A program made the translations under genes and the position numbers. Below are positions 22,220 to 54,876 of a stretch of 64,000 nt of DNA, piece after piece. How positions within the stretch are numbered: position 1 is the first letter of the stretch; the number at the start of each line of letters is the position of its first letter. The stretch is taken from contig NC_022041.1 in NCBI RefSeq assembly GCF_000444995.1, positions 1-64,000 of the forward strand, written 5' to 3'. Source of the stretch: Paracoccus aminophilus JCM 7686. GTDB taxonomy: Bacteria > Pseudomonadota > Alphaproteobacteria > Rhodobacterales > Rhodobacteraceae. Under the pieces are notes generated by a model. The model ran no database searches. It was not told where the DNA came from and worked only from the letters and a program-made list of their open reading frames with translations.

Positions 22220-22239
22220 GCTCACTCGCCTTATGCCGA

Positions 22240-22344: not shown

Positions 22345-22366
22345 GCGACACCAAGGGAGGAAAGTC

Positions 22367-24169: not shown

Positions 24170-24190
24170 GAGGCAGTTAGGCCTCATATT

Positions 24191-24202
24191 CTCATACTTT
24201 AG
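24191..24202 (+). promoter_or_regulatory. Conserved element upstream of the cytochrome c553i gene
   Basis: CTCATACTTTAG matches CTAATACTTTAG of the xoxF element (22246-22257) at 11 of 12 positions. It sits 91 bases before the cytochrome start. It suggests cytochrome expression is driven from its own, co-regulated promoter as well as from xoxF. Confidence 0.5.
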
Positions 24203-24293
24203 TTCAGATTCCTGAACTGTCATCTATCCAAGGACCGCCCCGAGCCTAACCTTTGGGCGGTCCTTTCGTGCGACCAAGGGAGGGAGAACAACA

Positions 24294-35087: not shown

Positions 35088-35824
35088 GCGCCGTAGCGCT
35101 TGAGCCCGCGGCGCAGGATGTAGGCGATCAGCTGGGCGAAGATCACGGTCATCAGCGACAGGACCAGAAGCGCCGCAAAGACCTGATCGGTCTTCATCCG
35201 GCCATTGGCGTGGATCATCAGTGCGCCCAAGCCCTTGGCCCCGCCAACCCATTCACCGACCACCGCGCCAATCGGCGCATAAACGGCGGCAAGGCGCAGC
35301 CCGGTTCCAAGCTGCGGCAAAGCGGCGGGAATGCGCAGATGCCACATCCGCCGCGCCGGAGAGGCCCCCATGACCTGCGCCAGATCGAGCGCGGCGGCAG
35401 GCGTGCGCAGCAAGCCATCGAGAAAGGCCGAGGCGACCGGGAAGAAGACGATCAGCACCGTCATCGCGATCTTGGGCTGCATCCCATAGCCCAGCCAGAG
35501 CGTCAGGATTGGCGCCAGCGCAAAGACCGGGATGGTCTGGCTGAAGGTCAAAAGCGGGTGGAGCACGCCGCTGATGCGCCGCGACGAGGCCATGATGACC
35601 GCGAGCGCCGCGCCAAGGCTCGCGCCGATCACGAAACCCAGAACGACCTCGGCCCCGGTGAAGCTGGCGGCCTGCGCGATCTCGGCGCGGTTCAGCCACA
35701 AAGATTTCACCACGGCCACGGGCGAGGGCAGCAGGAAGGGCGGCAATTGCGCGATCCAGATGATGCCTTGCCAAATCAGCAAGGCGACGATCAGGACGGG
35801 CAGGATGGCTTTCAGGGTCTTCAT
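35084..35824 (-). CDS. thiX: ABC permease ThiX, thiamine-precursor uptake
   Basis: 246-residue inner membrane permease of the SsuC/ThiX type. It has six hydrophobic segments and the coupling-helix EAA-like motif (VMGASPARRMWHLRIPAALPQLGTGLRLA). It is last of the ten-gene thiamine operon and pairs with ThiZ and ThiY. By context it imports formyl-aminopyrimidine-type HMP precursors that TenA can use. The substrate is inferred from the tenA neighbour. ThiZ stop overlaps its start (ATGA). Confidence 0.85.
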   Translation of the reverse strand: MKTLKAILPVLIVALLIWQGIIWIAQLPPFLLPSPVAVVKSLWLNRAEIAQAASFTGAEVVLGFVIGASLGAALAVIMASSRRISGVLHPLLTFSQTIPVFALAPILTLWLGYGMQPKIAMTVLIVFFPVASAFLDGLLRTPAAALDLAQVMGASPARRMWHLRIPAALPQLGTGLRLAAVYAPIGAVVGEWVGGAKGLGALMIHANGRMKTDQVFAALLVLSLMTVIFAQLIAYILRRGLKRYGA

Positions 35825-36561
35825 GCCAGCATCCTGCGCAAAAGGGCGGCCTCGGCTGCCATGACTTCGGGCGCATCGAAGGGACGCGCCTGACCCGGCG
35901 CGCGCGGGCCGGGGATCGGCTGATCCTCGAGCCCGGTTTCGGTCAAAAGCACGATCCGGTCGCCCAGACGCGCGGCCTCGGCCGGATCATGGGTCACCAA
36001 AAGCACCGTCCGCCCCTCCAACAGCCGCGCCGAGAGGCTTTGCATCCCCGCCCGCGTGCGCGCATCCAGCGCCGAGAAGGGCTCATCGAGCAGCACCAAG
36101 GGGCGATCTTCAAAAAGCGTGCGCGCCAAAGCCACGCGCTGGCGCTGCCCGCCCGAGAGGCGGTCGGGGCGGTGATCGGCGCGCTCGGCCAGACCGACGG
36201 CAGCGACCAGAGCTTCGGCGCGGGCGCGGTCGGGACGCTCGCCGCGCAGCCGCGCGCCCAGCATGACATTGCCGATGACATCGAGCCAACCGATCAGCCC
36301 CGGATCCTGTGCCATCAGTGCGACCGGCGTCTGCCGTTCCGCGATGCCCTCAAAGCGCACGCCGGTCTCGAGCCCCGCGATCAGGCGCAAGACCGTCGAT
36401 TTCCCGACGCCCGAGGGGCCAAGCAGGCAGGTCCATTCGCCCGCGCGCAGGTCCAGATCGATCGGCCCGAACAAAGGCGCGTCCCCGACCCAAGCCCGAC
36501 CCGCCAGATGGGCGGCCAGTTGGGGATGGGACGGGGCGCCAGACGGGGCGGCTGTGCTCAT
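35821..36561 (-). CDS. thiZ: ABC ATPase ThiZ
   Basis: 246-residue ABC ATPase with Walker A LLGPSGVGKST, signature LSGGQRQR, Walker B LVLLDEPFSALD and H-loop VTHDP. It powers the ThiXYZ importer. The N-terminal 20 residues are a divergent Ala/Pro-rich extension. The start at 36561 overlaps the tenA stop; the much longer frame to 37305 is a shadow across tenA. Tight overlaps on both sides show operon membership. Confidence 0.9.
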   Translation of the reverse strand: MSTAAPSGAPSHPQLAAHLAGRAWVGDAPLFGPIDLDLRAGEWTCLLGPSGVGKSTVLRLIAGLETGVRFEGIAERQTPVALMAQDPGLIGWLDVIGNVMLGARLRGERPDRARAEALVAAVGLAERADHRPDRLSGGQRQRVALARTLFEDRPLVLLDEPFSALDARTRAGMQSLSARLLEGRTVLLVTHDPAEAARLGDRIVLLTETGLEDQPIPGPRAPGQARPFDAPEVMAAEAALLRRMLA

Positions 36562-37262
36562 GCCCGGCCCAAGCCCCAGAAACCGACCTCGAGCCGGGTC
36601 GCGGTGGCGAAGCGTTGTGAGAGCTCGCGCCAGCGCGGCAGGCTGTGCGCATCGGGGCCCAGACGGCGGGCAATGGCGCTGTCCAAAAGCGCGCCGACCG
36701 CGTGGCAGGCTTTCTGGTAGTCCTCGCCGGCATAGGTGTCGATCCAGTCGCGATAGGGCGTGTCGGGCGCGGCCTCGCGCGCAAGGCGCAGCCCGATTTC
36801 GCCATAGCCCAGAACGCAGGGCGCAAGCGCCGCGACCACGTCGAGGAAATCGCCGGAAAAGCCGCTGTCGAGCACATAGCGCGTATAGGCAAGGTTCGGG
36901 ATCGCCTCGACCGTCGCTTCCAGCGTGGCGCGCGATATTCCCGCCGCCTCGCAAATCCCGACATGAAGCGCCATTTCCCCATCCAGCAGCGTATGGACCG
37001 TGGCCGAGCAGGCGCGCATTTCCTCGAAATTGCCGGCCTTGACCACCGCCAGCGCCCAAGCGCGCGAGAAATGGATCAGGAAGACGTAATCCTGTTGCAG
37101 ATAGGTCAGGAAATCGGCGCGGGGCAAAGCGCCCGAGCCGAGCCCTTCGACGAACGCATGGCGCGTGTAATCGTGCCAGTCGCTGGCGCAATCCTTGCGC
37201 CATGCGGCGAAGGCCTGCCCGTAATCTGGGCCGTAATCGGGAGAGTTCATCGGACCGCTCAC
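36558..37262 (-). CDS. tenA: Aminopyrimidine aminohydrolase TenA (thiaminase II)
   Basis: Salvages thiamine breakdown products by hydrolysing aminomethyl-pyrimidine to HMP. The nucleophile lies in APCVLGYGEIG, with the downstream Glu in LEVGFWGLGRA. Early blocks RHAFVEGLGSGALPRADFLTYLQQDYVFL carry the substrate-binding Asp and Tyr. At 234 residues it has normal length. It sits between thiY and thiZ, which ties uptake to salvage. Confidence 0.93.
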   Translation of the reverse strand: MSGPMNSPDYGPDYGQAFAAWRKDCASDWHDYTRHAFVEGLGSGALPRADFLTYLQQDYVFLIHFSRAWALAVVKAGNFEEMRACSATVHTLLDGEMALHVGICEAAGISRATLEATVEAIPNLAYTRYVLDSGFSGDFLDVVAALAPCVLGYGEIGLRLAREAAPDTPYRDWIDTYAGEDYQKACHAVGALLDSAIARRLGPDAHSLPRWRELSQRFATATRLEVGFWGLGRA

Positions 37263-38212
37263 GGGCGCGGCCCTTCCTGCCAGCCGATATCAATCGCCAG
37301 ATCACCCACCGGGCGGATGTTGTCGATCAGCGCGGCCTCGCGCAGAAAGGCCTCGAAGCGCGCATAGCGGCCCTGATCGAGCGCGGCGGGGCTTTGCGAG
37401 AAGCGCGGCACGGTGTCTTTCCACGCCTGCGCATTCAGCTCGTCCTTGAGATCGGGCGCGGTCGCGGAAAAGAGCGCCCAGCTTTCCTCGGGATGGTTGA
37501 CGATATATTGCGCGCCGCGCTCGACCGCATGGAGGAAGCGGCGGGTTTCGTCGCGGTCGAGCTTCAACGGATTGGCGACGAAGATCAGCTCGTCATAGGT
37601 CGGAACGCCTTGTTCTTCCACGAAAAGGCAACGACCCTCGCCGCCCTCAATCTTCATCTGGGTCAGCTCGAAATTGCGATAGCCGCCGATGGTGGCATCG
37701 ACCTGACCGGTCATTAGCGCCGGCGTCAGAGACCAGTTGACATTGACCATCTCGATGTCATTCGGGGTCAGTCCGGCTTGGGCGAGCATCGCATTGATCA
37801 GCGCGGTTTCGACGCCCGAGACCGAATAGCCGATCTTCTTGCCCTTGAGATCCGCCACGGTCTGGATCGGGCCATTGGCATTCACCATCAGGCAGTTGAG
37901 CGGCGTTGCGATCAGCGTGCCGACACGGACCAAGGGCAGGCCCTCATGGACTTGCAGATGCAGCTGCGGCTGATAGCTCACCGCCAGATCGGCCTGACCG
38001 GCGGCGACCATTTTGGGCGGATCGGCGGGATCGGCGGGGGCGATGATTTCGAGATCGAGCCCCTCGTCTTTGAAGAAACCCTTTTCCTGCGCGACGATGA
38101 TCGGGCCATGATCGGGGTTCACGAACCAGTCGAGCATCAGGGTCAGCTTGTCAGCGGCCAGCACCGGCTGGGCGATCAGGGCGAAGGCGCCCGCGAGCAA
38201 CGTATGTTTCAT
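37259..38212 (-). CDS. thiY: Periplasmic binding protein ThiY (NMT1/THI5-like)
   Basis: 317-residue secreted solute-binding protein of the NMT1/THI5-like family. Signal peptide to PVLAAD, then LTLMLDWFVNPDHGPIIVAQEKGFFKDEGLDLEI and SYQPQLHLQVHEGLPL, typical of the ThiY type that binds aminopyrimidines. The start at 38212 overlaps the thiF stop; the frame open to 38257 is an unlikely extension. Confidence 0.92.
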   Translation of the reverse strand: MKHTLLAGAFALIAQPVLAADKLTLMLDWFVNPDHGPIIVAQEKGFFKDEGLDLEIIAPADPADPPKMVAAGQADLAVSYQPQLHLQVHEGLPLVRVGTLIATPLNCLMVNANGPIQTVADLKGKKIGYSVSGVETALINAMLAQAGLTPNDIEMVNVNWSLTPALMTGQVDATIGGYRNFELTQMKIEGGEGRCLFVEEQGVPTYDELIFVANPLKLDRDETRRFLHAVERGAQYIVNHPEESWALFSATAPDLKDELNAQAWKDTVPRFSQSPAALDQGRYARFEAFLREAALIDNIRPVGDLAIDIGWQEGPRP

Positions 38213-39174
38213 TCGGTTTCTCCTTGAAGGGCCAGAAGCGCGATATCTCCGCTCCAACGGCCGGTCAGTCGGTTGGCGGCCCGCCAGGCGCGAAGCCCCG
38301 AGCGGCAGGCAATGACGATGCGGCGGCCCGGATCGGGCAGGAGGCCGGTCGCGCCGTAATCGGGCAGGCGCAGGGCATCGGGGGTGGCGGCGACGGGCGC
38401 CTCATCCTCGGGGCGCAGGTCGATGACGAGATCGCTGGCGCGCAGATCGGCGCGGGCGATAAAGCGCGGGCCGGGGCTTTCCGGGGCGCGGTCAAAGCGG
38501 AATTGCGAAAAGCGCAGATCGGCATCCATGCGGATGAAAAGGCCAAGCGGCGAGGGCGCGATCCCCAAGAGCACGCGCAGCGCCATCTGGGCCTGCAAGG
38601 CGCCAAGCGTGCCGACGACCGGGCCAAGCACGCCCGCCGTGGCGCAGGTCGCGCCATTGCCCGAGGGGTCGGGAAAGACCGCCCGCAGCGAGGGCGCACC
38701 GCCGCAATAGCCGCCGACATAGCCCTCGAGCCCCAAGGCCGAGGCCGAGATCAGCGGCTTTCCCGCAGCAAAACAGACGTCCGAGAGGATATAGCTCGCC
38801 GCATAGCTGTCGGCGCAATCGAGCACCAGATCGGCGCGCGTGACGAGATCCGCCGCATTGGCGGGCGTTAGCCAGTCAAGGAGCGGCGTCACGCGGACCT
38901 CGGGATTGAGCCCGGCCATGACCTCGGCCGCGACCTCGGCTTTCGGGCGGCCAATGTCCGCCATGCGGTAAAGCGGCTGGCGGTGGAGGTTCGTGGCCTC
39001 GATCCCGTCGGCATCGACCAGCGTGATCTGTCCGACGCCCGCGCCGGTCAGATATTGCAGCGCCGGGACGCCAAGCGCGCCCGCGCCGACGATCAGCACA
39101 TGGGCCGCGCCCAGCCGGGCCTGCCCTTCCGGGCCGACCTCGGGCAGGATCATCTGGCGGGCATAGCGGCTCAT
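38209..39174 (-). CDS. thiF: ThiF/HesA/MoeB-family adenylyltransferase with C-terminal rhodanese-like domain
   Basis: 321 residues. The first 240 are a ThiF/MoeB adenylyltransferase (VLIVGAGALGVPALQYLTGAGVGQITLVDAD) that activates the ThiS C-terminus; GATCATAGVLGPVVG keeps the catalytic Cys. The last 75 form a short rhodanese-like domain with an active loop ACRSGLRA. Both zinc-binding Cys pairs usual in MoeB/ThiF are absent; the first is replaced around PSLRAVFP. The fusion could supply sulfur for ThiS thiocarboxylate itself, an inference. It overlaps thiE and thiY. Confidence 0.88.
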   Translation of the reverse strand: MSRYARQMILPEVGPEGQARLGAAHVLIVGAGALGVPALQYLTGAGVGQITLVDADGIEATNLHRQPLYRMADIGRPKAEVAAEVMAGLNPEVRVTPLLDWLTPANAADLVTRADLVLDCADSYAASYILSDVCFAAGKPLISASALGLEGYVGGYCGGAPSLRAVFPDPSGNGATCATAGVLGPVVGTLGALQAQMALRVLLGIAPSPLGLFIRMDADLRFSQFRFDRAPESPGPRFIARADLRASDLVIDLRPEDEAPVAATPDALRLPDYGATGLLPDPGRRIVIACRSGLRAWRAANRLTGRWSGDIALLALQGETE

Positions 39175-39785
39175 GCGGGGGCCTTGGCTGTGGCGCAGAC
39201 CGCCAGCCAGTCGCGGATGCGGGCCTCGGGGTCGGCGTTCAGCGTGATATCGGTCACGACCGAGACCACATCCGCCCCCGCCGCAAAGGCTTGCGCGCCG
39301 CGCTCGGGCGTCATGCCGCCAATCGCGATCAGAGGAATATCGCCGATCAGCCGCTTCCATTCGGACACGCGGTCGAGCCCCTGCTGCTCCCATTTCATCT
39401 TCTTCAGGATCGTCGGCCAGACCGGCCCCAGTGCGATATAATCGGGCGCAAAGGACAGCGCGCGGTCAAGCTCGGCATGATCATGGGTCGAGATGCCGAC
39501 GCGGATGCCGGCGCGGCGGATCGCGGGCAGGTCGGCCTCGTCAAGATCTTCCTGACCAAGGTGGACGTAATCGCAGCCGAGATCAATCGCCTCGCGCCAG
39601 TAATCATTCACGACCAATTGCGCCCCCGCCGCCGCGCAAAGATCGCGGGCGCGGGTCAGCTCAAGGCGCAGATCCTCGGGTGTGCGGTCCTTGGCGCGGA
39701 TTTGCACCAGCTTGACGCCAAGTGGCAAAGCGCGGGGCAGCCAATCGGCCGTGTCGAAGATCGGATAGAACCGGGGAAGCGTCAT
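39171..39785 (-). CDS. thiE: Thiamine phosphate synthase ThiE
   Basis: Joins HMP pyrophosphate and the thiazole phosphate. [43 protein letters not shown] and IALGPVWPT match the TIM-barrel family and its pyrophosphate-binding residues. [28 protein letters not shown] closes the barrel. Length is 204 residues. Overlaps at both ends (ATGA) couple it to thiG and thiF. Confidence 0.95.
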
Positions 39786-40546
39786 GCCAGCACCGCCATG
39801 CCCATCAGGGGCGTTGAGGGAGAGGCCATGTCCCGGGCCTCGATCGGGTCGGCGGCGCGGGCGAGCGCGCCCGCCTCGATCGCCAAAGCCATGGCGCGCG
39901 CCATCGCCACCGGATCGCCCGCCTTGGCGACGGCGGTGTTCAAAAGCACGGCATCATAGCCCAGCTCCATCGCTTGCGCCGCATGAGAGGGCAGGCCGAT
40001 CCCGGCATCCACCACCAGCGGCACATCAGGATAATGGGCCCGCAAGGTCTTCAGCCCATAAATGTTGTTTAGACCACGACCTGAGCCAATAGGAGCCCCC
40101 CAAGGCATCAAGACCTTGCATCCGGCGTCCAAAAGCCGCTCGCAGATCGAGAGATCTTCGGTGCAATAGGGGAAGACTTCGAAGCCTTCACTACAAAGGA
40201 TACGCGCCGCCTCGATCAGAGCAACAACATCTGGTTGCAGTGTGTCGTGATCGCCGATCACCTCCAGCTTGATCCAGGGCGTGTCGAAAAACTCGCGTGC
40301 CATATGGGCGGTGGTCACCGCTTCCTTGACGCCATGACAGCCTGCGGTGTTCGGCAAGACCGCGACATTCAGCTCGCGGATGAGCTGGTGAAAGGCCGCG
40401 CCCTCGCCGCCCTCGCGCCGCAGCGAGACCGTGGCGATCCCGGCGTGCGAGGCGCGAAAGGCCTCGGCCAGAATGGCGGGCGAGGGATATTGCGCCGTCC
40501 CGAGCATCAGCGGGCTGGTGATTTCTTTCCCGTAAAAGACAGGCAT
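39782..40546 (-). CDS. thiG: Thiazole synthase ThiG
   Basis: Builds the thiazole phosphate from deoxyxylulose phosphate, ThiS thiocarboxylate and dehydroglycine. The Schiff-base Lys lies in [28 protein letters not shown] and [32 protein letters not shown] are family hallmarks. The start at 40546 was chosen at MPVFYGKEI, one base after the thiS stop. The frame open to 40690 is read through thiS. Length is 254 residues. Confidence 0.95.
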
Positions 40547-40547
40547 G

Positions 40548-40745
40548 TCAGCCCCCTTGCATCGAGGAGAGCGCCTCGAGCGCGTCTCCGTCCGAGATTG
40601 CGGTTGTGGCGCGCAGACCGGCGGGCAGGAACTCGCCATTGAGCGCGGTGGCGACTTTGACCTCGCCCAGACCGATTTCGGCCAGCACATCGGCGACAGT
40701 CGGGCCGCTGACCGCGCGGCGGGTGCCGTTAAGGATTATGTTCAT
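40548..40745 (-). CDS. thiS: Sulfur carrier protein ThiS
   Basis: 65-residue ubiquitin-like protein ending in Gly-Gly (SSMQGG), the tail adenylated by ThiF and made into a thiocarboxylate. [12 protein letters not shown] at the N-terminus and [15 protein letters not shown] in the middle are typical. Its start overlaps the last 17 bases of thiO and its stop precedes thiG by one base. Confidence 0.95.
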
Positions 40746-41709
40746 CCATGAACTCCGGGATCTGGCCCGTCTGAAGGTGATCGGCAGCCATGCGGGCCAC
40801 GGCGGGGGCCAGAAGATAGCCGTGGCGGTAAAGGCCGTTTGCGAAAAGCGTGCTGCCGCGACGACGCAGGCGGGGCAGGTTGTCGGGGAAGGCCGGGCGG
40901 GCATCGGCGCCGAGCTCGAGGATCTCGGCCTCGGCAAAACCGGGGTGGAGCGCATAGGCCGAGGAGAGCATCTCGACCGCCGCCCGCGCTGTGACCCGGC
41001 TTTTCGCGCCGCTTTCCAGCATGGTCGCGCCCAGCATATAGACGCCCTCGCCGCGCGGGACGATGTAAAGCGGGATGCGCGGATGCAGCAGGCGAATGGT
41101 GCGGGTGAGCGTGACCTCGGGGCAGCGGATCATCAGCATCTCGCCGCGTACGCCGCGCAGATCGGGCAGGGCATCGCGCGCCGCAAAGCCGCGCGCATCG
41201 ACGACCAGCCCTTCGGGCGTGCCTTCGGTTTCAATCTCGATGCCCTTGGCGGCCAGCCCGTCGCGCAAGGCGGTCAGGGCCTGTCGCGGGGTCAGGTGGC
41301 TTTCGCTGGCGTAGAAAAGACCACGGCGGAATCGGCTTTCCAGCTCGGGCTCCAGCGCGGCGATCTTGGGCGCGGTGACGGTTTCATGGGTGCGGGTGCG
41401 GCGGGCGAAGCGGTCGAGCTCGGCCTGATCGCGGCCAAGCGCGAGGACGAGCGTGCCGGTCGGGTGGACCGTGGCGCCATGGCGCGCCCACCAATCGGCG
41501 GCATCAAGGCCAAGGCGAACGACCGCAGGCTCGGCGCTTTCCTCCTCGCAATAGGGGGCGAGCATTCCGCCCGCCCACCAGCTGCACCCCTGCGGGCCGG
41601 GGCCGCCTGCCGGGTCGATGATCCGCAGGGGGATGCCCCGTGCGGCGAGCTCGGTCGCGATGGCAAGGCCAAGCACGCCCGCGCCAAGGACGGTGACGGG
41701 CGTGGTCAT
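40729..41709 (-). CDS. thiO: Glycine oxidase ThiO
   Basis: FAD amine oxidase giving the dehydroglycine needed by ThiG in place of the ThiH tyrosine lyase. The N-terminal FAD motif is [48 protein letters not shown] and the C-terminal [14 protein letters not shown] match ThiO. Use of ThiO fits an aerobe. It overlaps thiD (ATGA) and thiS (17 bases). Length is 326 residues. Confidence 0.94.
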
Positions 41710-42539
41710 TCGGCGGCCTCGCGGGTTTTCGCGGGCCAGAAGGCGTGGAAGTGATGGACCGGGCCGTGGCCTTGGCCGATTTGCAGGTCATCGGCGGCGC
41801 GGATCGCCTGTTGCAACCAGCGATGCGCGGCCTTGACCGCCTCGGGCACGGCCAAGCCCTGCGCGAGCCCCGCCGCAATGGCGGAGGACAGTGAGCAGCC
41901 GGTGCCATGGGTGTTTTTTGTGATCACACGCGGGGCGGTCAGGGTCAGGATCTGGCTGCCGACCAGCAGATCGGTGCAGATCTCGCCGCGCCCATGCCCG
42001 CCTTTCATCAACACAAAGCGCGGCCCTTTGGCGCGCAGGGTCTGGCCTTGCAGCGCCATGTCTTGCGGCGAGGTGGCCTCGGCCATGTTCAGCAAAGCGG
42101 CGGCTTCGGGCAGGTTCGGCGTCAGGACGGTGGCGAGCGGCAGCAGATGCCGCAGCATCGCGGTGATCGCATCGGCAGGCAGCAAAGCGTCGCCGGATTT
42201 CGCAATCATCACCGGGTCGAGCACGACCGGGATCGGCCGGACGGCGAGATGGTGGCGCAGACGCTCGGCGACAGTTGTGATCACATTCGCGCCGCCGATC
42301 ATCCCGATCTTGACCGCATCAACGCGCAGATCGTCGAAAACCGCGTCGATCTGGGCCGCGACCATCGCCGGAGAGACCGCCTCGATCCCCGTCACCGCGC
42401 GGGTGTTCTGCGCGGTGATCGCTGTGATCACAGAAGCGCCATAGGTTCCCAGCGCGGAAAATGTCTTGAGATCGGCCTGAATCCCCGCGCCGCCGCCGCT
42501 GTCAGAGCCCGCAATGGTCAAAGCTATGGCCTGCGCCAT
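41706..42539 (-). CDS. thiD: Bifunctional HMP kinase / HMP-phosphate kinase ThiD
   Basis: Phosphorylates HMP twice to HMP pyrophosphate for ThiE. LTIAGSDSGGGAGIQADLKTFSALGTYGASVITAITAQNT is the family start. VLDPVMIAKSGD and KNTHGTGCSLSSAIAAGLA with the anion hole follow. First gene after the TPP riboswitch. Shine-Dalgarno AAAGGCGGGA (minus strand, 42550-42541) can pair with an upstream anti-Shine-Dalgarno. thiC is absent here, so HMP must come from a distant thiC or from the ThiXYZ-TenA salvage route. Length is 277 residues. Confidence 0.95.
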   Translation of the reverse strand: MAQAIALTIAGSDSGGGAGIQADLKTFSALGTYGASVITAITAQNTRAVTGIEAVSPAMVAAQIDAVFDDLRVDAVKIGMIGGANVITTVAERLRHHLAVRPIPVVLDPVMIAKSGDALLPADAITAMLRHLLPLATVLTPNLPEAAALLNMAEATSPQDMALQGQTLRAKGPRFVLMKGGHGRGEICTDLLVGSQILTLTAPRVITKNTHGTGCSLSSAIAAGLAQGLAVPEAVKAAHRWLQQAIRAADDLQIGQGHGPVHHFHAFWPAKTREAAE

Positions 42540-42540
42540 G

Positions 42541-42610
42541 TCCCGCCTTTCTTGCCCGGATCACCAGCAAAGGGGGAGATTGTGCGCAGGGATGGGGGCC
42601 GAAGCCCCTG
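42541..42610 (-). promoter_or_regulatory. Expression platform between TPP aptamer and thiD
   Basis: On the minus strand, the thiD Shine-Dalgarno (42550-42541) can pair with CCCCCTTT-type sequence at 42577-42569 over eight of nine positions, with an 18-base loop. Next to the aptamer is GGGGC-TTCG-GCCCC (42608-42595), a very stable tetraloop hairpin. No U tract follows, so translational rather than transcriptional control is favoured. Confidence 0.6.
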
Positions 42611-42624
42611 CCGCGTCACTCTAC

Positions 42625-42709
42625 CCTTCCCTCCGCCGGTATGAGCCGGATCAGGTTCGATGGGTCGGTGCCGCGCACCTCTCAGCCCCGTTGCGGGGCC
42701 CCCCAAGTG
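42625..42709 (-). promoter_or_regulatory. TPP riboswitch (THI element)
   Basis: Read on the minus strand, the conserved CTGAGA follows a GGGGC stem, then CGACCC, GAACCTGATC, GGCTCATACCGGC and GGAGGGAAGG. These are the invariant parts of the thiamine pyrophosphate aptamer, in the right order. It lies 86 bases before thiD and controls the ten-gene operon; thiamine pyrophosphate should switch it off. Confidence 0.95.
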
Positions 42710-42766
42710 TATGAGTCGGGCTAAAGGCTAGGCCCCTCGGCGGGGCTTGGCAAGGGGGGAGCGCGC

Positions 42767-46994: not shown

Positions 46995-47783
46995 CTAGCG
47001 CCAGCCGGTGGGCGCCGAGGGGATCGGGCTGGCCTCGACCTTGCGCAGCAGCGCGATCATCGCGTCAATCTGGTGATCGCAGATCGCGCGGCCCTTGTCG
47101 GCGGTCGAGTCCGCCGCGTCGCCGACCGTGCCCGAGGCGTGCAGATCGGCCGAGATCCAGCCATAAGACACCGGGCCGATCGGGCTGATCAGGCTGTCCT
47201 CGGCGCTCGAGATAAAATTCTCGGCCTTGGACATATCGACCAGCTCGGGGTGGAAGGCCAGCATCAGCGAGGTTTCGTCATCGCCGCCGTGGATGCCGTA
47301 TTTCGCCTGCCTTTCCGAGAACGAGCCCTCGGGCGCGCCAAAGCCCATCCACTGGCATTTCACCGCCAGCATTCCGGCCTGCACCCGCAGCTCTCGCGTG
47401 AGGATCGAGACCAGATCGAGATTGCCGCCATGGCTGTTCACGACCACGATCTTTTTGACGCCCGCCCGCGCGACCGAGAGGCCGATCTGCGTCCAGGCCG
47501 CCAGCGCAGTCGGGGCATCGAGCGTCAGCGTGCCCGCCGCCCAAAGATGCTCGGTCGATTTACCGACGGCCTGCGCGGGCAGGATGCGGATGTCGAGATC
47601 CTCGGGGCATTTCTCACGCAGGCGCTTCAGCATCCCTTCGGCGATCAGCGTATCGGTGCCGACCGGCAGATGGGGGCCGTGCTGCTCGATCGCGCAGGTC
47701 GGCAGGATCGCGATGGTCTTCATCGGGTCGAGACCGGCGAATTCCGGGGCGCGGAAATCGGCCCAGTTGAAGCGGCGAGTCAT
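46995..47783 (-). CDS. Creatininase family amidohydrolase
   Basis: 262-residue creatininase-fold metal hydrolase. EQHGPHLPVGTDTLIAEG, VVNSHGGNLDLVSIL and IHGGDDETSLMLAFHPELV provide the expected metal ligands. The family opens cyclic amides (creatinine) or deformylates aminopyrimidines (ArfB). It is the last gene of a seven-gene operon and overlaps the reductase gene (ATGA). The substrate is not known, but a ring-opening amide hydrolysis fits the neighbours. Confidence 0.85.
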   Translation of the reverse strand: MTRRFNWADFRAPEFAGLDPMKTIAILPTCAIEQHGPHLPVGTDTLIAEGMLKRLREKCPEDLDIRILPAQAVGKSTEHLWAAGTLTLDAPTALAAWTQIGLSVARAGVKKIVVVNSHGGNLDLVSILTRELRVQAGMLAVKCQWMGFGAPEGSFSERQAKYGIHGGDDETSLMLAFHPELVDMSKAENFISSAEDSLISPIGPVSYGWISADLHASGTVGDAADSTADKGRAICDHQIDAMIALLRKVEASPIPSAPTGWR

Positions 47784-48397
47784 GTCTTTTCCTTCTTCAA
47801 AGGCGCGAGCAGGCGGGTCATGGCGCGGTCCACCCGTTTGAGGTGGCGCTTGCGGCTGCGCGGGGTCGAGCTGTCCATTTTGTAATGCGCCGCAAAGATG
47901 CTGCGGCGCTGCGGGGCGCAAAGATAGCCGACGCCGCGCAGCAAGGTGCGCCGTCCCGGTGCGCCGACCAGCGCGGTCAACCAGCGACTGGCGCCGCAGG
48001 TGGTGAAGACGCCGATCCGGGTGATCTGGGTCAGGCCGGGGCGGATGTCCTTGTTTTGTGCGTCGGGCATCAGAAAGGCCGCCTCGGGCAAAAGCACGCG
48101 GTCGAGCCAGCCTTTCAGCATGGCGGGCAGGCCATACCACCAGGTCGGATAGGTGAAGATCAGCGTGTCGCACCAAGCCAGCGCGGCCACGTGATCTTCG
48201 ACCCCCGAACGGTTCGCGGGCGCGTCCAGATAGCCGCGCCACTCCGGCCCCGAGAGCACCGGATCAAAGCCCTGCGCGTAAAGATCCATCACCCGGATCT
48301 CGGCTCCGGCCCGGGTAAGGTGATCCAGTACCCGGTCGCGGACGGCCGCGGTGAAGCTTTCGGCCTCCGGGTGGCAATGGATCACCAAGGCCTTCAT
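47780..48397 (-). CDS. NAD(P)H dehydrogenase (quinone)-like flavodoxin-fold reductase
   Basis: 205-residue flavoprotein of the NQO1/MdaB type. ALVIHCHPEAESFTAAVRDRVLDHL is the phosphate-binding start. FTYPTWWYGLPAMLKGWLDRVL is the family signature. It overlaps the FAD oxidase gene upstream and the creatininase gene downstream. It may supply reduced flavin or recycle a quinone acceptor for the pathway. The start at 48397 overlaps the upstream stop (ATGA). Confidence 0.85.
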   Translation of the reverse strand: MKALVIHCHPEAESFTAAVRDRVLDHLTRAGAEIRVMDLYAQGFDPVLSGPEWRGYLDAPANRSGVEDHVAALAWCDTLIFTYPTWWYGLPAMLKGWLDRVLLPEAAFLMPDAQNKDIRPGLTQITRIGVFTTCGASRWLTALVGAPGRRTLLRGVGYLCAPQRRSIFAAHYKMDSSTPRSRKRHLKRVDRAMTRLLAPLKKEKT

Positions 48398-49785
48398 GCG
48401 CGGCGCAGGCCCGGATAGGCATACATCGTCTTGAAGTCCCAGTTCGGATCCTCCCAAGCGATCATCTTGCCGGGGTTGAGGATGCCTTTGGGATCGGCCT
48501 CGCGCTTGAAGTTGAGCTGACGGTCATCGACGATCTGACGCCCACCTTCTTCCAGCGTGTAGCGATGCGGGTTGAAGATCATGCAGCCCATATCCTCGTG
48601 GATCTGGACGATTTCGTTCAGCCGCTCTTCGGTCGTGAACCGCACCAAGGTCAGCCCCGCCGCCGTCATCACCCCGTTTTCCTTGAGGAATTCGATGTGC
48701 TGGATCAGCTCGTCACCGAAATGCGCGCGGATCGCGTCGATCTTGTCGAGGAAACCCTCACCGGCATAGCGGACCTGAAGATAGGTGATCTCGGGCTCAA
48801 CCTTCAGCGCGCGCAACGTCGTGTGGTTCCAGCCATATTCATAGGCCGGGCCGGGGTCGCGCGGCCAGTCGTTGGCATCGCTGCGATAGATCAGCTTCGC
48901 CTCGGGGTCATGGCCAAGGAAGGTCAGGAAACCGTCCATCGACTGCGGCGCGATCATCAGAGCGATCACTGAATCCGTCTCGGAGACATGGTCCTTGAAG
49001 CGCTGGAAATAGCGCGCGGCAATCGGCGCCTCGCAAACCGTGTCGAGCTTCATCGCGATCCCGTCTTGCAGCGAGATCTGATGCGCGAGCCGGCTCGCCT
49101 TGGCGAAATCGGGATGGGTCACGAAGACATGGACCCAGTCATAAGCGGGCGCGAGCGGCAGCTCGATTTCGGTGACGATGCCGTTGGTGCCGTAAGCATG
49201 GCTGACGCGGGCGAGGTCCTCGCCGGTGAAGTCCAGAACGCGCGGCTCGGCCTCGGCGGTGACGACGCGGATGCGGATGATATTGCCGTAATCGCGCAGC
49301 ACGCCCCAGCGGACCGAGCCAACCCCGCCCGAGCCGCCGCAGATGAAGCCACCGATGGTCGCGGTCGCGGCGGTCGAGGGCGTCATGCGCAGCTCTTGGC
49401 CGGAATGCGCGCGGGTCTGGCGGTCGAGATCGCGGATGACCAGCCCCGGCTCGACCACGATGCGGCCGGGGGCGATCTCATGGATCTTGTTCATGTTCTG
49501 CATATGCAGGATGCAGCCGCCTTTCAGCGGCATGGCCTGACCGTAATTGCCGGTCCCCGCGCCGCGCACCGTGACCGGCACGTCATGGGCGTGACAGATG
49601 CGCAGAACCTCGATGACCTCGTCCTGCGAGCGCGGCATGACCACGAAATCGGCACAAACCCCGTCGAGGCGATCCTTCAGGACCGGCGAATACCAGAAGA
49701 AATCCCGGCTTTTCGCCTTCACCGAGGGCGGGTTGTCGTCGATGTCGAGATGGGCGAGGGCGGCTTTGGCGGCGTCGATGTTCAT
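48394..49785 (-). CDS. FAD-linked oxidase (GlcD / vanillyl-alcohol oxidase fold)
   Basis: 463-residue oxidase or dehydrogenase with an N-terminal PCMH-type FAD domain (VPVTVRGAGTGNYGQAMPLKGG, then TATIGGFICGGSGGVGSVRWG) and a C-terminal domain ending ADPKGILNPGKMIAW, as in glycolate or lactate dehydrogenases. The exact substrate is unknown. The start at 49785 overlaps the amidohydrolase stop; a frame to 49899 is spurious. Part of the seven-gene operon. Confidence 0.85.
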   Translation of the reverse strand: MNIDAAKAALAHLDIDDNPPSVKAKSRDFFWYSPVLKDRLDGVCADFVVMPRSQDEVIEVLRICHAHDVPVTVRGAGTGNYGQAMPLKGGCILHMQNMNKIHEIAPGRIVVEPGLVIRDLDRQTRAHSGQELRMTPSTAATATIGGFICGGSGGVGSVRWGVLRDYGNIIRIRVVTAEAEPRVLDFTGEDLARVSHAYGTNGIVTEIELPLAPAYDWVHVFVTHPDFAKASRLAHQISLQDGIAMKLDTVCEAPIAARYFQRFKDHVSETDSVIALMIAPQSMDGFLTFLGHDPEAKLIYRSDANDWPRDPGPAYEYGWNHTTLRALKVEPEITYLQVRYAGEGFLDKIDAIRAHFGDELIQHIEFLKENGVMTAAGLTLVRFTTEERLNEIVQIHEDMGCMIFNPHRYTLEEGGRQIVDDRQLNFKREADPKGILNPGKMIAWEDPNWDFKTMYAYPGLRRA

Positions 49786-51071
49786 GGGCAATCCATCAGA
49801 TGGTCGAGTTCGGCGTAATCGGGCAGGGTGCGGTCGATCTGGCGACCGTCCCGGATCACGATCCGGTCGGATTGGGGGCGGGCAAAAAGCTCGGTCCAAG
49901 AGCGGGCGCGGCAGATCACCAGATCCGCAGGCGCCCCGGGGGCAAGGCTCGGCGCGGCAAAGCCTGCGGCTTTGGCCGGATTGGTCAGGAAGGCGTGGCT
50001 CCAGTCGCTGCGCGAATGGTCAAGATGCGCGATCCGGGTCGCCTCGCGCATGACCTCGATCATGTCGAGATCGCCGTAGGCATAGAAGGGGTCGCGGGTG
50101 TTGTCCGAAGCGAAGCTCACATTGATCCCGCGCGCCGCCATCTCATGGACCAGCGTGACGCCCCGCCAGCGCGGGGTGCGCGCAGGCGCGGTCTGGGCCA
50201 CGCGATCTTGCAGGTAAAGGTTGCACATCGGCAGGCTGACGACATGCAACCCCGCCTTGGCGACCAGATCGAGCGTGCGCAGGGCCTCGGCCTCGGGCTG
50301 GACCGCCAGCGAGCAGCAATGGCCGACCGTCACCGGCGCGTCGAAGCCGGTTTCCAGCACGATCTCGGCAATCTCGCGCAGGGTCGCGACCGAGGCATCG
50401 CCGGTTTCATCGGTGTGGAAATCGGCATGAAGCCCGCGATTGGCGGCATGGGCGAAGAAGGCGCGCAGCCGGTCGCGGATCTGCGCATCGGGGAAGGTGA
50501 CGCAGCCCAGAACCGAGCCGGTTTGCGCGACGAGATCCGCCAGCGCGCCGAAATCGCCGCCATTGTAGGGATCAATCAGGTCGATCGTCGTCAGGCAGGC
50601 CGCTTGCAGGTCGATCCGGCCCGCCCATTCCTCGCGCAGTTTGACGAATTCGCCAAAGCTGATCTCGGCCTGCGGCGGGATCGCGTCGAGATGGGTGCGG
50701 ATCGCGCGGGTGCCATGCGCATAGGCAGAGCGCAGCGCGAAATCCATGCGCGCCCGCACATCGGCACCCGACCAGTTCGCGGTGCGGTCGGCATCGACGG
50801 TCGTCAGCGCCCCCATAAAGCTGCCGTCCGGGTTGGAGGCACGGGGCCAGATATGGCCCTTGTCGAGATGGGTGTGCATGTCGATGAAAGCGGGAAAGAC
50901 CATCGCGCGGTTCATCTCGACCACCGGCAAGGTGGGATCGGGGGCCGCGATCTTGCCGTCGCGGATCGTCAGATCAATCTGCGCCAGATCTCCGGGTTCG
51001 CCGATCAGACAGGCGGGGACGGTCAGGCCTTTCAGCGTGACCGCGCCTTGCGGAAGTGTCCGGAAATCCAT
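49782..51071 (-). CDS. Cytosine-deaminase-like amidohydrolase
   Basis: 429-residue metal-dependent amidohydrolase. HTHLDKGHIWPR carries the first metal ligands, HADFHTDETGD and VTVGHCCSLAV the next, and FASDNTRDPFYAYGDLDMIEVM the catalytic Asp, as in cytosine/creatinine/isoguanine deaminases. It probably deaminates a nitrogen ring. ATG 51071 overlaps the permease stop; a GTG at 51074 is a possible alternative start. Confidence 0.85.
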   Translation of the reverse strand: MDFRTLPQGAVTLKGLTVPACLIGEPGDLAQIDLTIRDGKIAAPDPTLPVVEMNRAMVFPAFIDMHTHLDKGHIWPRASNPDGSFMGALTTVDADRTANWSGADVRARMDFALRSAYAHGTRAIRTHLDAIPPQAEISFGEFVKLREEWAGRIDLQAACLTTIDLIDPYNGGDFGALADLVAQTGSVLGCVTFPDAQIRDRLRAFFAHAANRGLHADFHTDETGDASVATLREIAEIVLETGFDAPVTVGHCCSLAVQPEAEALRTLDLVAKAGLHVVSLPMCNLYLQDRVAQTAPARTPRWRGVTLVHEMAARGINVSFASDNTRDPFYAYGDLDMIEVMREATRIAHLDHSRSDWSHAFLTNPAKAAGFAAPSLAPGAPADLVICRARSWTELFARPQSDRIVIRDGRQIDRTLPDYAELDHLMDCP

Positions 51072-51913
51072 CACATTTCCCTTTTGATCGCGCTTTCATG
51101 CCATTTGCGCAGTGCCAGATGTGAAATCAGCGAGAGCACGGCAAAGATCATCACGCCCAGCAATGCGATCAGCACGAGGGCCGCGAACATGCGCGGAATA
51201 TTGAGGCGATAGCTCGCTTCGAGGATGCGGAAAGCCAGCCCCGAGCCGATGCCGCCGGTGCCCGCGACATATTCCGCGACCACGGCGCCGATCAGCGAGA
51301 GACCGCCCGCAATGCGCAGACCGCCGAGGAAATAGGGCAAAGCCGAGGGCAGTTGCAGGTGGATCAGCCTTTGCCAGCGGTTCGCGCCATAGATGCGGTA
51401 GAGGTCCGAGAGGTTGTGATCGACCGAGCGCAGGCCAAGCGTCGTGTTCGACAGGATCGGGAAAAAGGCCACGATCCAGGCGCAGAGCAAGAGCCCCGCC
51501 ATCTTGTTCTCGACATAGATGAAGATCAGCGGCGCAATCGCCACGACCGGCGTCACCTGCAAGATGACCGCGAAGGGATAGAAGGACATCTCGGCCCATC
51601 GGCTGAGGCTGAAGAGCACCGCAAGCCCGACGCCGCCGATGATCGCGACGGCCAGCGCCATCAGCGTGATCTTCATCGTGACCAGCGCGGCGGGGCCAAG
51701 AATGGCCCAGTCCTTAACAAGAGTTTGTAGAACGAGCCCCGGGCTTGGCAAGATATAGTGGGGGATCTTGTACCAAGCCACAACGCGGTCCCAGAGCACC
51801 AGCGCGATGACAAGGGCCAGAACCGGCATGAGCCAGCGCCCGATCTTCTCGGCGCGCTTGCGCCGCATCCGGGCGGCTTCTTCGGGGTCGATGGCGGAGG
51901 AAAGATCGGTCAC
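51071..51913 (-). CDS. ABC permease for an unknown nitrogen compound
   Basis: 280-residue permease of the SsuC/ThiX type. Six hydrophobic segments follow a charged N-terminal 25 residues. The EAA-type loop is GANRWQRLIHLQLPSALPYFLGGLRIAGG. It lies between its ATPase and the amidohydrolase, with four-base overlap to the former. Confidence 0.87.
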   Translation of the reverse strand: MTDLSSAIDPEEAARMRRKRAEKIGRWLMPVLALVIALVLWDRVVAWYKIPHYILPSPGLVLQTLVKDWAILGPAALVTMKITLMALAVAIIGGVGLAVLFSLSRWAEMSFYPFAVILQVTPVVAIAPLIFIYVENKMAGLLLCAWIVAFFPILSNTTLGLRSVDHNLSDLYRIYGANRWQRLIHLQLPSALPYFLGGLRIAGGLSLIGAVVAEYVAGTGGIGSGLAFRILEASYRLNIPRMFAALVLIALLGVMIFAVLSLISHLALRKWHESAIKREM

Positions 51914-52689
51914 GCCTGTTCTCCCATAGCGTCAGAAAGCGCATCCGAGGCCGCGCGGCAGAGCGCCGCATATTCGGCCGAGGTGCGGAAGTCTTCGTCG
52001 CGCGGTCCCTCCACATCGACGCGCAGCTCATGGGCGACGCGACCGGGGCGGGGGGCCATGACCACGATGCGGTTGGACAGGAACACGCTTTCAAAGACCG
52101 AATGGGTCACGAAAATCACCGTGCAATTCAGGGTCTTTTGCAGATCCATCAGATCGCGGTTCATCTTGTTGCGGGTGATCTCGTCCAGCGCGGCGAAGGG
52201 CTCGTCCATCAGGATCAGCCGCGGTTTCGTCACCAGCGCACGGGCGATCGAGACCCGCATTTTCATCCCGCCGGAAAGCTCGCGCGGATAGGAATTCGCG
52301 AAGTTTTCCAACCCGACCATCTTGAGCGCATCATGAATCTGGGCCTCGACATCGCCGAATTTCACGCCGCGTAGCCGCATCGGCAGCCAGACGTTCTTGG
52401 CGACCGTGGCCCAGGGCATCAGCGTTGCTTCCTGAAAGACGACACCGAGGTCTCCGGCCTGCTGGCTGCCCTCCCATTGCACGCGACCGGCGGTCGGATG
52501 CATCAGCCCGGCGATCAGCCGCAAGGCGGTCGATTTCCCGCAGCCCGACGGGCCGAGCAGCGAGATGAAATCGCCCTGCCGGACGGTGAGGTTCATGTCC
52601 TTGAGCGCGGTGACGCCCCCGGCGAACACCTTGCTGACCCCCTCCATCCGCAGGACGGTGGGGGCCGTCATATCGCTTGCCTGTGTCAT
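51910..52689 (-). CDS. ABC ATPase for an unknown nitrogen compound
   Basis: 259-residue ATPase of the nitrate/sulfonate/taurine importer class. Walker A LLGPSGCGKST, Q-loop VVFQEATLMPW, signature LSGGMKMR, Walker B LILMDEPFAALD and H-loop VTHSVFE are all present. It directly follows the binding-protein gene and overlaps the permease. Confidence 0.9.
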   Translation of the reverse strand: MTQASDMTAPTVLRMEGVSKVFAGGVTALKDMNLTVRQGDFISLLGPSGCGKSTALRLIAGLMHPTAGRVQWEGSQQAGDLGVVFQEATLMPWATVAKNVWLPMRLRGVKFGDVEAQIHDALKMVGLENFANSYPRELSGGMKMRVSIARALVTKPRLILMDEPFAALDEITRNKMNRDLMDLQKTLNCTVIFVTHSVFESVFLSNRIVVMAPRPGRVAHELRVDVEGPRDEDFRTSAEYAALCRAASDALSDAMGEQA

Positions 52690-53682
52690 TTACTTCTTCA
52701 GATCCAGTCCGACGCCCTTGCCGACGAATTGCAGCGTATAGGCCTGTGAGTAATCGAGATCGGCCGGGACCAGCTCGGCCTTGACCATCTTGTCGTAGAA
52801 ATCCTTGATCCGGGTTTCGGTCATCACGCCGATGCCTTTTTCCAGCGTGTCGCCGGAATCGACAATGCCGTTGTCTTTCAATGCCTTGATCGAGAAGGCG
52901 ATCTGTTCATCGGTCAGATCCGGGTTGTCGGCTTTGATCTTTTCGATGGCTTTGGAATTGTCGCCGTAAAGGTAGTTATACCAGCCCTTGGCGGTGCCAT
53001 CGACGAAGCACTGAACCACCTCGGGTTTCGAGGCGACGGTGTCCGCCATGGCTTCGATGATCGTCGAATAGGTCGACCAGCCGGCATCGGCGAGCAGCTG
53101 GACATCGGGTTTGAAGCCGGCCTCTTTCTCGATCATCAGCGGCTCGGAAGAGATGAAGCCCTGAATGGCGCTGTCTTCGTTCTGGATGAAGGGCGCGACG
53201 TTGAACGTATAGACCTCGCGCTGTTCGTCGGTGAAGCCGAAGTCCTTCTTCATCCATTGGTAAAAGGTCGCGAAGCCCTCGTCAGAGATCATCAGCTTGA
53301 GATTTTTCAGATCCTCGAAGGTCTTGGCCTTGCCGGGATGGGCGAGGATGACCTGCGGGTCTTTCTGGAAGACACCCATGACCGCCACGACCGGCACGTT
53401 TTCCGCCGCCGAGCTGAAGGTCCCGAGCAGGTTGCCCGCCATGTTGAAGTCGATCTTGCCCGCCAGCATCATCGCGCGGTTGTTCACCTGCGGGCCGCCC
53501 GGCACGATGGTCACGTCAAGGCCGCAAGCCGCATAGGTGCCGTCCACGACCGCCTGATAATAGCCGCCATGCTCCGCCTGAGCGACCCAGTTGGTGCCGA
53601 ATTTCACGGCTTCATTCGCGCTGGCGCCGGTGGCGATCAGGCCGAAGGTTGTGCTCAGGGAAATGAGGATGTGGCGAGGCAT
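52690..53682 (-). CDS. NMT1/THI5-like periplasmic substrate-binding protein
   Basis: 330-residue secreted binding protein (signal peptide TGASANEA). GTNWVAQAEHGGYYQAVVDGTYAACGLDVTIVPGG and NNRAMMLAGKIDFNM place it in the pyrimidine/nitrate/taurine-binding class. It is the first gene of the operon. A frame to 53709 gives an unlikely start; 53682 (MPRHILISL) gives a proper signal peptide. The ligand could be a pyrimidine-like ring given the downstream hydrolases. Confidence 0.88.
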   Translation of the reverse strand: MPRHILISLSTTFGLIATGASANEAVKFGTNWVAQAEHGGYYQAVVDGTYAACGLDVTIVPGGPQVNNRAMMLAGKIDFNMAGNLLGTFSSAAENVPVVAVMGVFQKDPQVILAHPGKAKTFEDLKNLKLMISDEGFATFYQWMKKDFGFTDEQREVYTFNVAPFIQNEDSAIQGFISSEPLMIEKEAGFKPDVQLLADAGWSTYSTIIEAMADTVASKPEVVQCFVDGTAKGWYNYLYGDNSKAIEKIKADNPDLTDEQIAFSIKALKDNGIVDSGDTLEKGIGVMTETRIKDFYDKMVKAELVPADLDYSQAYTLQFVGKGVGLDLKK

Positions 53683-53878
53683 GACGGCTCCTGCTGTTGG
53701 GTGACGCAAGGTTGCGATGATTTTTTCGGGTTTCTAGCAACTTGTTTAGACGAATCGCAACGCGAGCGACATCTTCCTTTCGTTCTTCCCACCAAAAAGA
53801 GGCAATTTCCTCAGGATAGAGGAGACGGGCCGGGGCGCCGTCTTGACCGCGAACCCGGCTCTGACGCAGGATCGCGCC
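53683..53878. promoter_or_regulatory. Divergent control region of the seven-gene operon and the RidA-HAD pair
   Basis: 196 bases without a gene. An exact eight-base inverted pair, GTTGCGAT at 53711-53718 and ATCGCAAC at 53754-53761, is spaced 43 bases apart (about four helical turns). A third half-site CGCAA at 53705-53709 faces the first across two bases. An AT-rich core lies between. This resembles a two-operator site for one regulator controlling both directions. No regulator gene is adjacent. Confidence 0.5.
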
Positions 53879-54274
53879 ATGAAAGCGCTTGCCCCTTCCT
53901 CGATTTCCGCCCCCTTCGGTCGCTATTCGCATGGCGTCGCTCTGGACGGTCCGGGTCGCCTTGTCGCGACCTCGGGCCAGCTCGCCTTGCGCGCCGATGG
54001 CACGGTGCCGGAGGGCGCCTATGCGCAGGCGCGGCAATGCTTTGCCAATTGCACCGCCATTCTCGCCGAGGCCGGTTTCGGCCCTGCGGATGCGGTGCGG
54101 ATCAATGCTTTCGTCACCGATCGGTCGCATTTCCCCGATTATATGCGGGCGCGGGATGAATGGTTGTCCGAGGTCGAGGTGCTGCCCGCCTCGACATTGG
54201 TGATCGTCGTCGGTTTCACCCGGCCTGAATTTCTCGTTGAAGTCGAAGTCACCGCATTCCGGAGCCAGCCATGA
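53879..54274 (+). CDS. RidA family protein
   Basis: 131-residue RidA-fold protein. VATSGQLALRADGTVPEGAYAQARQCFANCTAILAEAGF and LVIVVGFTRPEFLVEVEVTAF fit the family, including the C-terminal Glu. As RutC does in the Rut pyrimidine pathway, it may clear an enamine or aminoacrylate product. It diverges from the seven-gene operon. The start at 53879 is chosen over 53843, which has no better ribosome-binding site. Overlaps the HAD gene (ATGA). Confidence 0.85.
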   Translation: MKALAPSSISAPFGRYSHGVALDGPGRLVATSGQLALRADGTVPEGAYAQARQCFANCTAILAEAGFGPADAVRINAFVTDRSHFPDYMRARDEWLSEVEVLPASTLVIVVGFTRPEFLVEVEVTAFRSQP

Positions 54275-54876
54275 CCAATATCGTCTTCGACCTCGGTTTC
54301 GTGCTGATCGGCTGGCGGCCCGAACGCGCGTTCACCGCGCATTTCGACGATGCCGCGCAGATCTCGGACTGGATGGCGCGGGTGGATTTTCCGCGCTGGA
54401 ACCGTTTGCAGGATGGGGGCCGCAGCCTTGAGGCGGCGCTCGATCAGGTCCGCGCGGATCATGGCGAGGAAGATGCCGCGATCCTCGCCAGCTATATCCG
54501 CAATTTCGACGACACCATCACCGAGCCGGTGCCGGGAGCCTGGGAGCTTTTGGAAGAGCTTTCCGCCGCCGGGCATCCGCTTTACGCGATCACCAATTGG
54601 GGTGCCGACACCTGGCCCGCGGCGCTGGCGCGTTATCCGCGTCTGGCTTCGGTCTTTCGCGATATCGTGGTTTCGGGCGAGGTGAAGCTGCTCAAGCCCG
54701 AGCCCGAGATCTATCACCTGCTGTTGTCGCGCAACGGGCTTGAGGCCGGGGACTCGCTTTTCATTGACGATACCTTGGCCAATGTCGAAGGCGCGCGCGC
54801 GGTCGGGATGGATGCGATCCATTTCACCGATGCGCCCGCGCTGGCCCGCGAGCTGGGCGCACGCGGGCTTTATTGA
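54271..54876 (+). CDS. HAD superfamily hydrolase
   Basis: 201-residue haloacid-dehalogenase-like hydrolase. The first motif is altered: VFDLGFVLIGW has Asp then Leu-Gly where the usual nucleophile pair is D-x-D/G. YAITNWG (motif II), KPEPEIYHLLL (motif III Lys) and LFIDDTLANVEGA (motif IV) are present. It resembles 2-haloacid dehalogenase and phosphoglycolate phosphatase-type proteins. Translationally coupled to the RidA gene, so perhaps part of the same pathway. Confidence 0.83.
   Translation: MTNIVFDLGFVLIGWRPERAFTAHFDDAAQISDWMARVDFPRWNRLQDGGRSLEAALDQVRADHGEEDAAILASYIRNFDDTITEPVPGAWELLEELSAAGHPLYAITNWGADTWPAALARYPRLASVFRDIVVSGEVKLLKPEPEIYHLLLSRNGLEAGDSLFIDDTLANVEGARAVGMDAIHFTDAPALARELGARGLY

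Follow-up and report, generated by a model that had tools for sequence, protein, structure and literature searches.

A conserved gene module of Paracoccus aminophilus JCM 7686 with a probable role in pterin catabolism

Gene content and layout of the cluster

The stretch of DNA analyzed here (64,000 nucleotides of Paracoccus aminophilus JCM 7686, NC_022041.1; hereafter the window) carries, between positions 46995 and 54876, a cluster of nine genes that probably serves the uptake and breakdown of folate-derived pterins. The original prediction, made from the letters of the sequence, had described nine genes, seven of them abutting on the minus strand, and all nine were found in place. The minus-strand genes encode a creatininase-family metal hydrolase of 262 amino acids, a candidate lactam or ring hydrolase (46995 to 47783; PF02633, 228 bits; domain scores here are Pfam bits); a flavodoxin-fold reductase, the second of two reductase types found in such modules (47780 to 48397; PF02525, Flavodoxin_2, 103 bits); a flavin adenine dinucleotide (FAD) enzyme homologous to the Protein Data Bank entry 6V42 (48394 to 49785; FAD_binding_4, 103 bits); and a CodA-like amidohydrolase proposed to be a pterin deaminase (49782 to 51074; Amidohydro_3, 101 bits), which begins at a GTG or, alternatively, at the ATG at 51071. 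They are joined by the permease (51071 to 51913; PF00528, BPD_transp_1, 84 bits), the ATPase (51910 to 52689; PF00005, ABC_tran, 121 bits), and the NMT1/THI5-fold substrate-binding protein (52690 to 53682; NMT1, 74 bits) of an ATP-binding cassette (ABC) importer. A divergent intergenic region of 196 bp (53683 to 53878) separates the binding-protein gene from two plus-strand genes, one for a Rid-family protein that lacks the catalytic arginine of RidA (53879 to 54274; PF01042, Ribonuc_L-PSP, 80 bits) and one for a HAD hydrolase (54271 to 54876; PF00702, HAD Hydrolase, 53 bits).

The minus-strand genes are tightly packed: three of their six junctions are ATGA overlaps, as had been claimed for most of them, and the others are two GTGA overlaps and one TAA that directly abuts ATG. 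The Rid-HAD junction is again ATGA. This pair had also been thought to diverge from the same promoter as the operon, a proposal left without support, since no sigma-70-type consensus was found between 46500 and 55200 (0 against 1.6 expected). An exact palindrome search of 82 intergenic regions between Rid and binding-protein genes gave none common to more than 6 of the 82.

Conservation of the module in other genomes

Gene neighborhoods were compared in three sets of loci. The deaminase-anchored set was taken from the best 80 of 575 confirmed candidates in titled genome records, some of them metagenome-assembled genomes, and consists of close relatives; 24 of the 80 loci were dropped for short flanks, and in the 56 that were counted a neighbor is a gene within 9 kb of the deaminase gene. 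The phylum-wide set holds those 20 of 28 deaminase matches that come from families other than the window's. The FAD-anchored set comes from one rhizobial-type family, in which the FAD gene occurs in 104 of 297 genomes (E up to 1e-150); 20 regions were chosen for spread among the 104, and 19 were counted after one was dropped for a short flank. Because the loci are related, the counts are not independent, and the 9-kb counts cross-count both the pair of reductases and the pair of oxygenase queries; copy numbers are given from a separate count.

The search for the same gene set in other genomes, which the original prediction had proposed as a check, revealed strong co-occurrence. Genes for the FAD enzyme, permease, ATPase, binding protein, and flavodoxin reductase each lie near the deaminase gene in 54 of the 56 deaminase-anchored loci, the Rid gene in 47, and the creatininase-family gene in 46. 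The FAD gene is present in 18 of the 20 phylum-wide loci, with the binding protein, ATPase, and flavodoxin reductase in 17 each and the permease, creatininase-family hydrolase, and Rid protein in 16 each, and the FAD-anchored set (n = 19) has the deaminase, creatininase-family hydrolase, ATPase, and permease in all 19 and the binding protein, Rid protein, and flavodoxin reductase in 17 each. The phylum-wide draw covered 398 genomes, of which 27 have the deaminase (E up to 1e-80) and 32 the FAD gene (E up to 1e-70); 26 of the 27 deaminase genomes have both genes, no more than 200 bases apart in 26/26. Among neighbor families outside the module, the most frequent reach 10 of 101 sequences and none more.

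The minus-strand operon of seven genes, together with the Rid gene that diverges from it, is thus a conserved module, which recurs in Alphaproteobacteria and, in a divergent form, in Betaproteobacteria (Variovorax). The HAD gene had been counted as a member of the set, yet it lies near the module in just 1 of the 56 loci (Paracoccus halophilus) and is best regarded as having been added to the cluster locally.

The proposed pterin deaminase and its relatives

The putative deaminase of the window shares 38% identity, in an alignment of 407 residues, with P0268 of Variovorax paradoxus, which is named pterin deaminase in UniRef and amidohydrolase family protein at NCBI; its nearest named relative, with 79 to 80% identity, is from Paracoccus halophilus. 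A profile of the window family (A1) scores P0268 at 305 bits and Escherichia coli CodA at 138 bits. All CodA-type metal and catalytic residues, whose roles we take to be those of CodA, as we do for the pocket, are present (H67, H69, Q157, H220, E223, H252, and D324). In an alignment of 17 relatives, which left out two distant paralogues from the window's own genome, the six metal and catalytic positions are identical in 17/17 and in CodA, and the glutamine is conserved in 14/17. The Asp and Trp of the CodA pocket are absent from the window deaminase, which has Asn325 and Phe330 instead, as do all 17 relatives, P0268 included. Judged by profile score and pocket residues, the predicted enzyme is closer to the named pterin deaminase than to CodA.

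Another pterin deaminase, Arad3529, was reportedly the subject of work by Fan et al. in 2013. Arad3529 and the pterin deaminase of Variovorax sp. F1 agree with the window protein in being amidohydrolases and in their metal and pocket residues, although the identity of the window protein to the Variovorax relative is the 38% given above. The Variovorax sp. F1 enzyme, a protein of 399 amino acids that shares 37% identity with Arad3529, was cloned by means of a primer placed in a conserved "endoribonuclease" gene downstream of it and was shown to deaminate both folic acid and pteroic acid (You et al. 2022, PMC9513972). The passages of that paper cited here assign the deaminase and carboxypeptidase G, not FAD, creatininase-family, reductase, or import genes, and leave the steps after deamination open (PMC9513972).

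One Variovorax-type locus of our collection (L174) resembles this description: its gene for a 400-amino-acid deaminase overlaps a downstream Rid gene. The deaminase of that genome shares 96% identity with a protein of Variovorax boronicumulans. The deaminase gene faces genes for a flavodoxin reductase, a binding protein (55% identical to that of the window), an FAD enzyme (40%), a permease, an ATPase, and a creatininase-family protein, which is the same kind of module as in the window. The length of the deaminase, the genus, and the neighboring gene suggest that L174 is the counterpart of the published Variovorax pterin deaminase locus.

The FAD enzyme, the reductases, and an accessory oxygenase

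Over 446 aligned residues the FAD enzyme is 54% identical to PDB 6V42, whose title reads "flavin oxygenase ... involved in folate catabolism". Judging by similarity, 6V42 comes from a bacterial family other than that of the window enzyme. Three genomes contain a homologue 88 to 89% identical to 6V42, and both of the loci examined, which belong to Hoeflea according to the names of their deaminase relatives, have it in the same operon. Full-length homology and a shared operon type place the window FAD enzyme with the flavin oxygenase of 6V42/6V43.

Because the FAD enzyme groups with 6V42 and the deaminase is close to the Variovorax pterin deaminase, a pterin seems likelier as the substrate than cytosine, creatinine, or a hydantoin. 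The same two relationships make the term "unassigned", applied to the cluster in the original prediction, too strong, while its general logic of N-heterocycle import, deamination, oxidation, and hydrolytic ring opening fits the module well.

Two flavodoxin reductases per locus were counted in 53/56 deaminase-anchored, 10/20 phylum-wide, and 10/19 FAD-anchored loci. The single reductase of the window module matches the second type (65% identity to FLD2 of locus L045 versus 39% to its FLD1), and an FLD1 search of the window's genome yielded, apart from the reductase of the module itself (39%), a single weak match. An Fe(II)/2-oxoglutarate oxygenase lies near the deaminase gene in 36 of the 56 loci; its gene (DIOX_N/2OG-FeII_Oxy) sits between the reductase and creatininase-family genes in loci such as L045. 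It is absent beside the window cluster, and a search of the genome was empty but, lacking a positive control, shows little.

The importer and the thiamin question

The structural model of the binding protein is closest to the thiamin-bound 4nmy, the ThiY-type 3ix1, and Thi5. It has the fold of the Thi5/ThiY aminopyrimidine-binding proteins, but its identity to them is 14 to 17%. Such a likeness would fit the aminopyrimidine-like ring of pterins and would fit the thiamin pyrimidine equally well.

By eye, the window also contains a thiamin locus (35087 to 42715) whose genes look like those for ThiD, ThiO, ThiG, ThiE, ThiF, a ThiY-like binding protein, TenA, and ThiX/ThiZ; the thiamin pyrophosphate (TPP) riboswitch heading it was identified with Rfam and the ThiY-like protein by its match. 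The cluster might therefore be suspected to handle the thiamin pyrimidine 4-amino-5-hydroxymethyl-2-methylpyrimidine (HMP, toxopyrimidine) or a related aminopyrimidine, through deamination of the 4-amino group, FAD-dependent oxidation of the hydroxymethyl group, and ring hydrolysis, a proposal that the nearest structures of the binding protein and the nearby thiamin locus would favor. We consider it quite unlikely, as the title of 6V42 speaks of folate and the deaminase scores close to a named pterin deaminase. Moreover, the window's sole TPP riboswitch (42611 to 42715, minus strand) belongs to the thiamin locus, Rfam found none upstream of the operon described here, which thus differs from ThiXYZ/HMP salvage, and no thi genes were recognized by eye among the recurrent neighbors of the module. 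The thiamin locus owns a separate ThiY-like protein that is 24% identical to the cluster's binding protein (26.7 bits); with this protein and the sole riboswitch both at the thiamin locus, a thiamin link through its proximity was rejected.

The creatininase-family hydrolase and the Rid protein

The presence of a creatininase-family protein together with an amidohydrolase, and the name cytosine/creatinine deaminase that JGI gives to some deaminase relatives, could be read as signs of a pathway for creatinine, a hydantoin, or another N-methyl-heterocycle. The window hydrolase scores 85.4 bits on the creatininase equivalog TIGR04448, whose cut-off is 235, and Gly takes the place of Glu in the creatininase HYEN motif, the metal ligands used for comparison being those we take creatininase to have. 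A further point for such a pathway comes from 10 of the 101 sequences, nine of one rhizobial set plus L092, in which the module is flanked by two fused FAD-GcvT genes that look like dehydrogenases of the sarcosine/dimethylglycine type. Where inspected (13551 to 15992 in L115 and 15711 to 21227 in L092), these genes run on the strand opposite to the operon and are not part of it, and none was seen near the window module; we regard this alternative as highly improbable. Cytosine or creatinine as a substrate deduced from family names alone was rejected on the TIGR04448 score, the altered HYEN motif, and the Asn and Phe of the deaminase pocket.

In the Rid protein, the original prediction had seen a RidA that cleans up an enamine. 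We aligned the best Rid match per locus to 1QU9 (120 loci, 29 of which gave none), and the column of E. coli RidA Arg105 is Ser in 91/91, so this role is unsupported, and RidA-type enamine clean-up was rejected on the same ground; two Rid proteins of divergent modules likewise have Ser there. The Rut pyrimidine pathway shares a common logic with the module, namely an N-heterocycle, a flavin step with its reductase, and a Rid protein, but the window Rid scores 21.8 bits on the RutC equivalog (cut-off, 169.1), and no RutA-type family occurs among the window module genes. Rid4 to Rid7, which are without this arginine, seem not to hydrolyze imines and "remain mysterious", in the words of the passage cited here (Niehaus et al. 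2015, PMC4433059). A second Rid-family-like gene was seen by eye outside the cluster, at 15157 to 15528 of the window.

A proposed route for pterin catabolism

Beyond the gene identities, operon structure, conservation, and family relationships observed, we propose that the module probably mediates pterin catabolism, with the substrate deduced from homology. The THI5/ThiY-like binding protein and the ABC importer would take up pterins (2-amino-4-oxopteridines such as pterin and pterin-6-carboxylate), and the CodA-like amidohydrolase would remove the 2-amino group as ammonia to give lumazine; both steps are suggested by homology to named proteins. The FAD enzyme, as the title of 6V42 suggests, may then oxidize or oxygenate the pteridine ring, drawing on the flavodoxin-fold enzyme as a putative NAD(P)H reductase, after which the creatininase-family hydrolase might open a lactam ring and the arginine-less Rid protein might act on a late intermediate. 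The order of these steps is offered with less confidence than pterin catabolism as such, and the roles of the reductase, the creatininase homologue, and the Rid protein are likewise conjectural.

Several observations weigh against pterins as the substrate. In a tree, the window deaminase and P0268 fall into two separate forks that have weak support (80/91 and 83/95) and long branches, and the fork with 83/95 support also contains CodA on a long branch. The NCBIfam model NF005759, "cytosine deaminase", is matched by the window deaminase with 595.7 bits (cut-off, 403) and by P0268 with 346 bits, although this match is a name and not an activity, and of the 120 relatives listed for the Variovorax deaminase only 1 is named pterin deaminase, the remaining ones being "amidohydrolase family protein" or "cytosine deaminase". 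The function given for 6V42 comes from the title chosen by its depositors, the open-access literature searched yielded no paper that names 6V42 or 6V43, and the fold of the FAD enzyme is commoner among dehydrogenases and oxidases than among oxygenases. The nearest structures of the binding protein, as described above, hold thiamin or aminopyrimidines. Although GcvT-type domains bind folate, the FAD-GcvT neighbors could also mean an N-methylated substrate, and they slightly lowered our confidence in the pterin reading. Finally, no folate-cleaving enzyme was recognized by eye among the recurrent neighbors of the module.

The NCBIfam name would also suit a module of common ancestry with the pterin module whose substrate has shifted to another N-heterocycle, for example, a cytosine derivative, a purine-like base, or a flavin breakdown product. 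In its favor, relatives of the FAD enzyme below 50% identity, of which the 398-genome draw contained 12 (9 fetched with flanks), sit in modules with other partners: a creatininase-family gene accompanies 8 of the 9, an NMT1-type importer 6, and a deaminase relative 6, and TauD-type or Rieske oxygenases were seen by eye in some of them. We nevertheless consider a shifted substrate in the window unlikely, if less so than an HMP pathway, as close homologues of 6V42 occur in identical gene order and as Asn325 and Phe330 are common to P0268 and not CodA, though divergent modules have them too.

Two divergent loci (L164 and L165) may hint at how ring breakdown could end. A ureidoglycolate-lyase-family gene and a fusion of hydantoinase A and B (1120 residues) adjoin the module there and diverge from it, and the opposite flank holds genes for a Rieske oxygenase and a glutamine-synthetase-like protein; the L164 genes come from a domain scan and the L165 look-alikes were found by eye. 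From this context, hydantoinase and ureidoglycolate lyase would be what a ring breakdown ending in ureides needs.

Partial versions of the module were also observed. In L171 (8265 to 10503), an FAD relative (37%) and a creatininase-family gene (39%) occur without a deaminase or NMT1-type importer nearby, a pair that seems to be reused in a different pathway. L130 (4672 to 10677) may be a shortened relative of the module: a deaminase relative (42%) occurs there with an NMT1-type importer, a LysR-like regulator, and a gene that looks like an Fe(II)/2-oxoglutarate oxygenase, but FAD and creatininase-family matches are absent.

Implications for pterin use by bacteria

Bacterial use of the pteridine ring of folate is poorly described, and the papers that we found do not describe the steps of pterin or folate catabolism that follow deamination. 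The open-access literature searched yielded no account of the full gene set, although a published pathway may exist. Our proposal supplies candidates for uptake and for these later steps and opens the pathway to tests in culturable Rhodobacterales; Paracoccus halophilus and Celeribacter baekdonensis are culturable species that have the module. Many "cytosine deaminase" names would need correcting if it is true, and the module offers a physiological setting for Rid proteins without the imine-hydrolyzing arginine.

More speculatively, and with clearly less confidence than in pterin catabolism by the window module, we suggest that a widespread modular pathway may mineralize pterins in marine and rhizosphere proteobacteria. 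It would comprise a THI5-fold pterin importer, a flavin oxygenase and reductase that yield a lactam, a creatininase-family protein acting as a new pteridine-ring hydrolase, and a catalytic arginine-less Rid protein, with exchangeable Fe(II)/2-oxoglutarate, TauD-type, and Rieske oxygenases fitting different pterin side chains. This Rid type, described as mysterious, would then have its first physiological function.

Other features of the window

Elsewhere in the window, the stretch from 3300 to 5700, between MnmE-like and ParA-like genes, contains no convincing genes by eye and is lower in G+C content (0.546 in 4001 to 6000). Positions 18293 to 29321 look by eye like a methanol and formaldehyde oxidation cluster, with a glutathione-dependent formaldehyde pathway and a c-type cytochrome, and a PQQ-type dehydrogenase gene lies within this run at 22367 to 24166.

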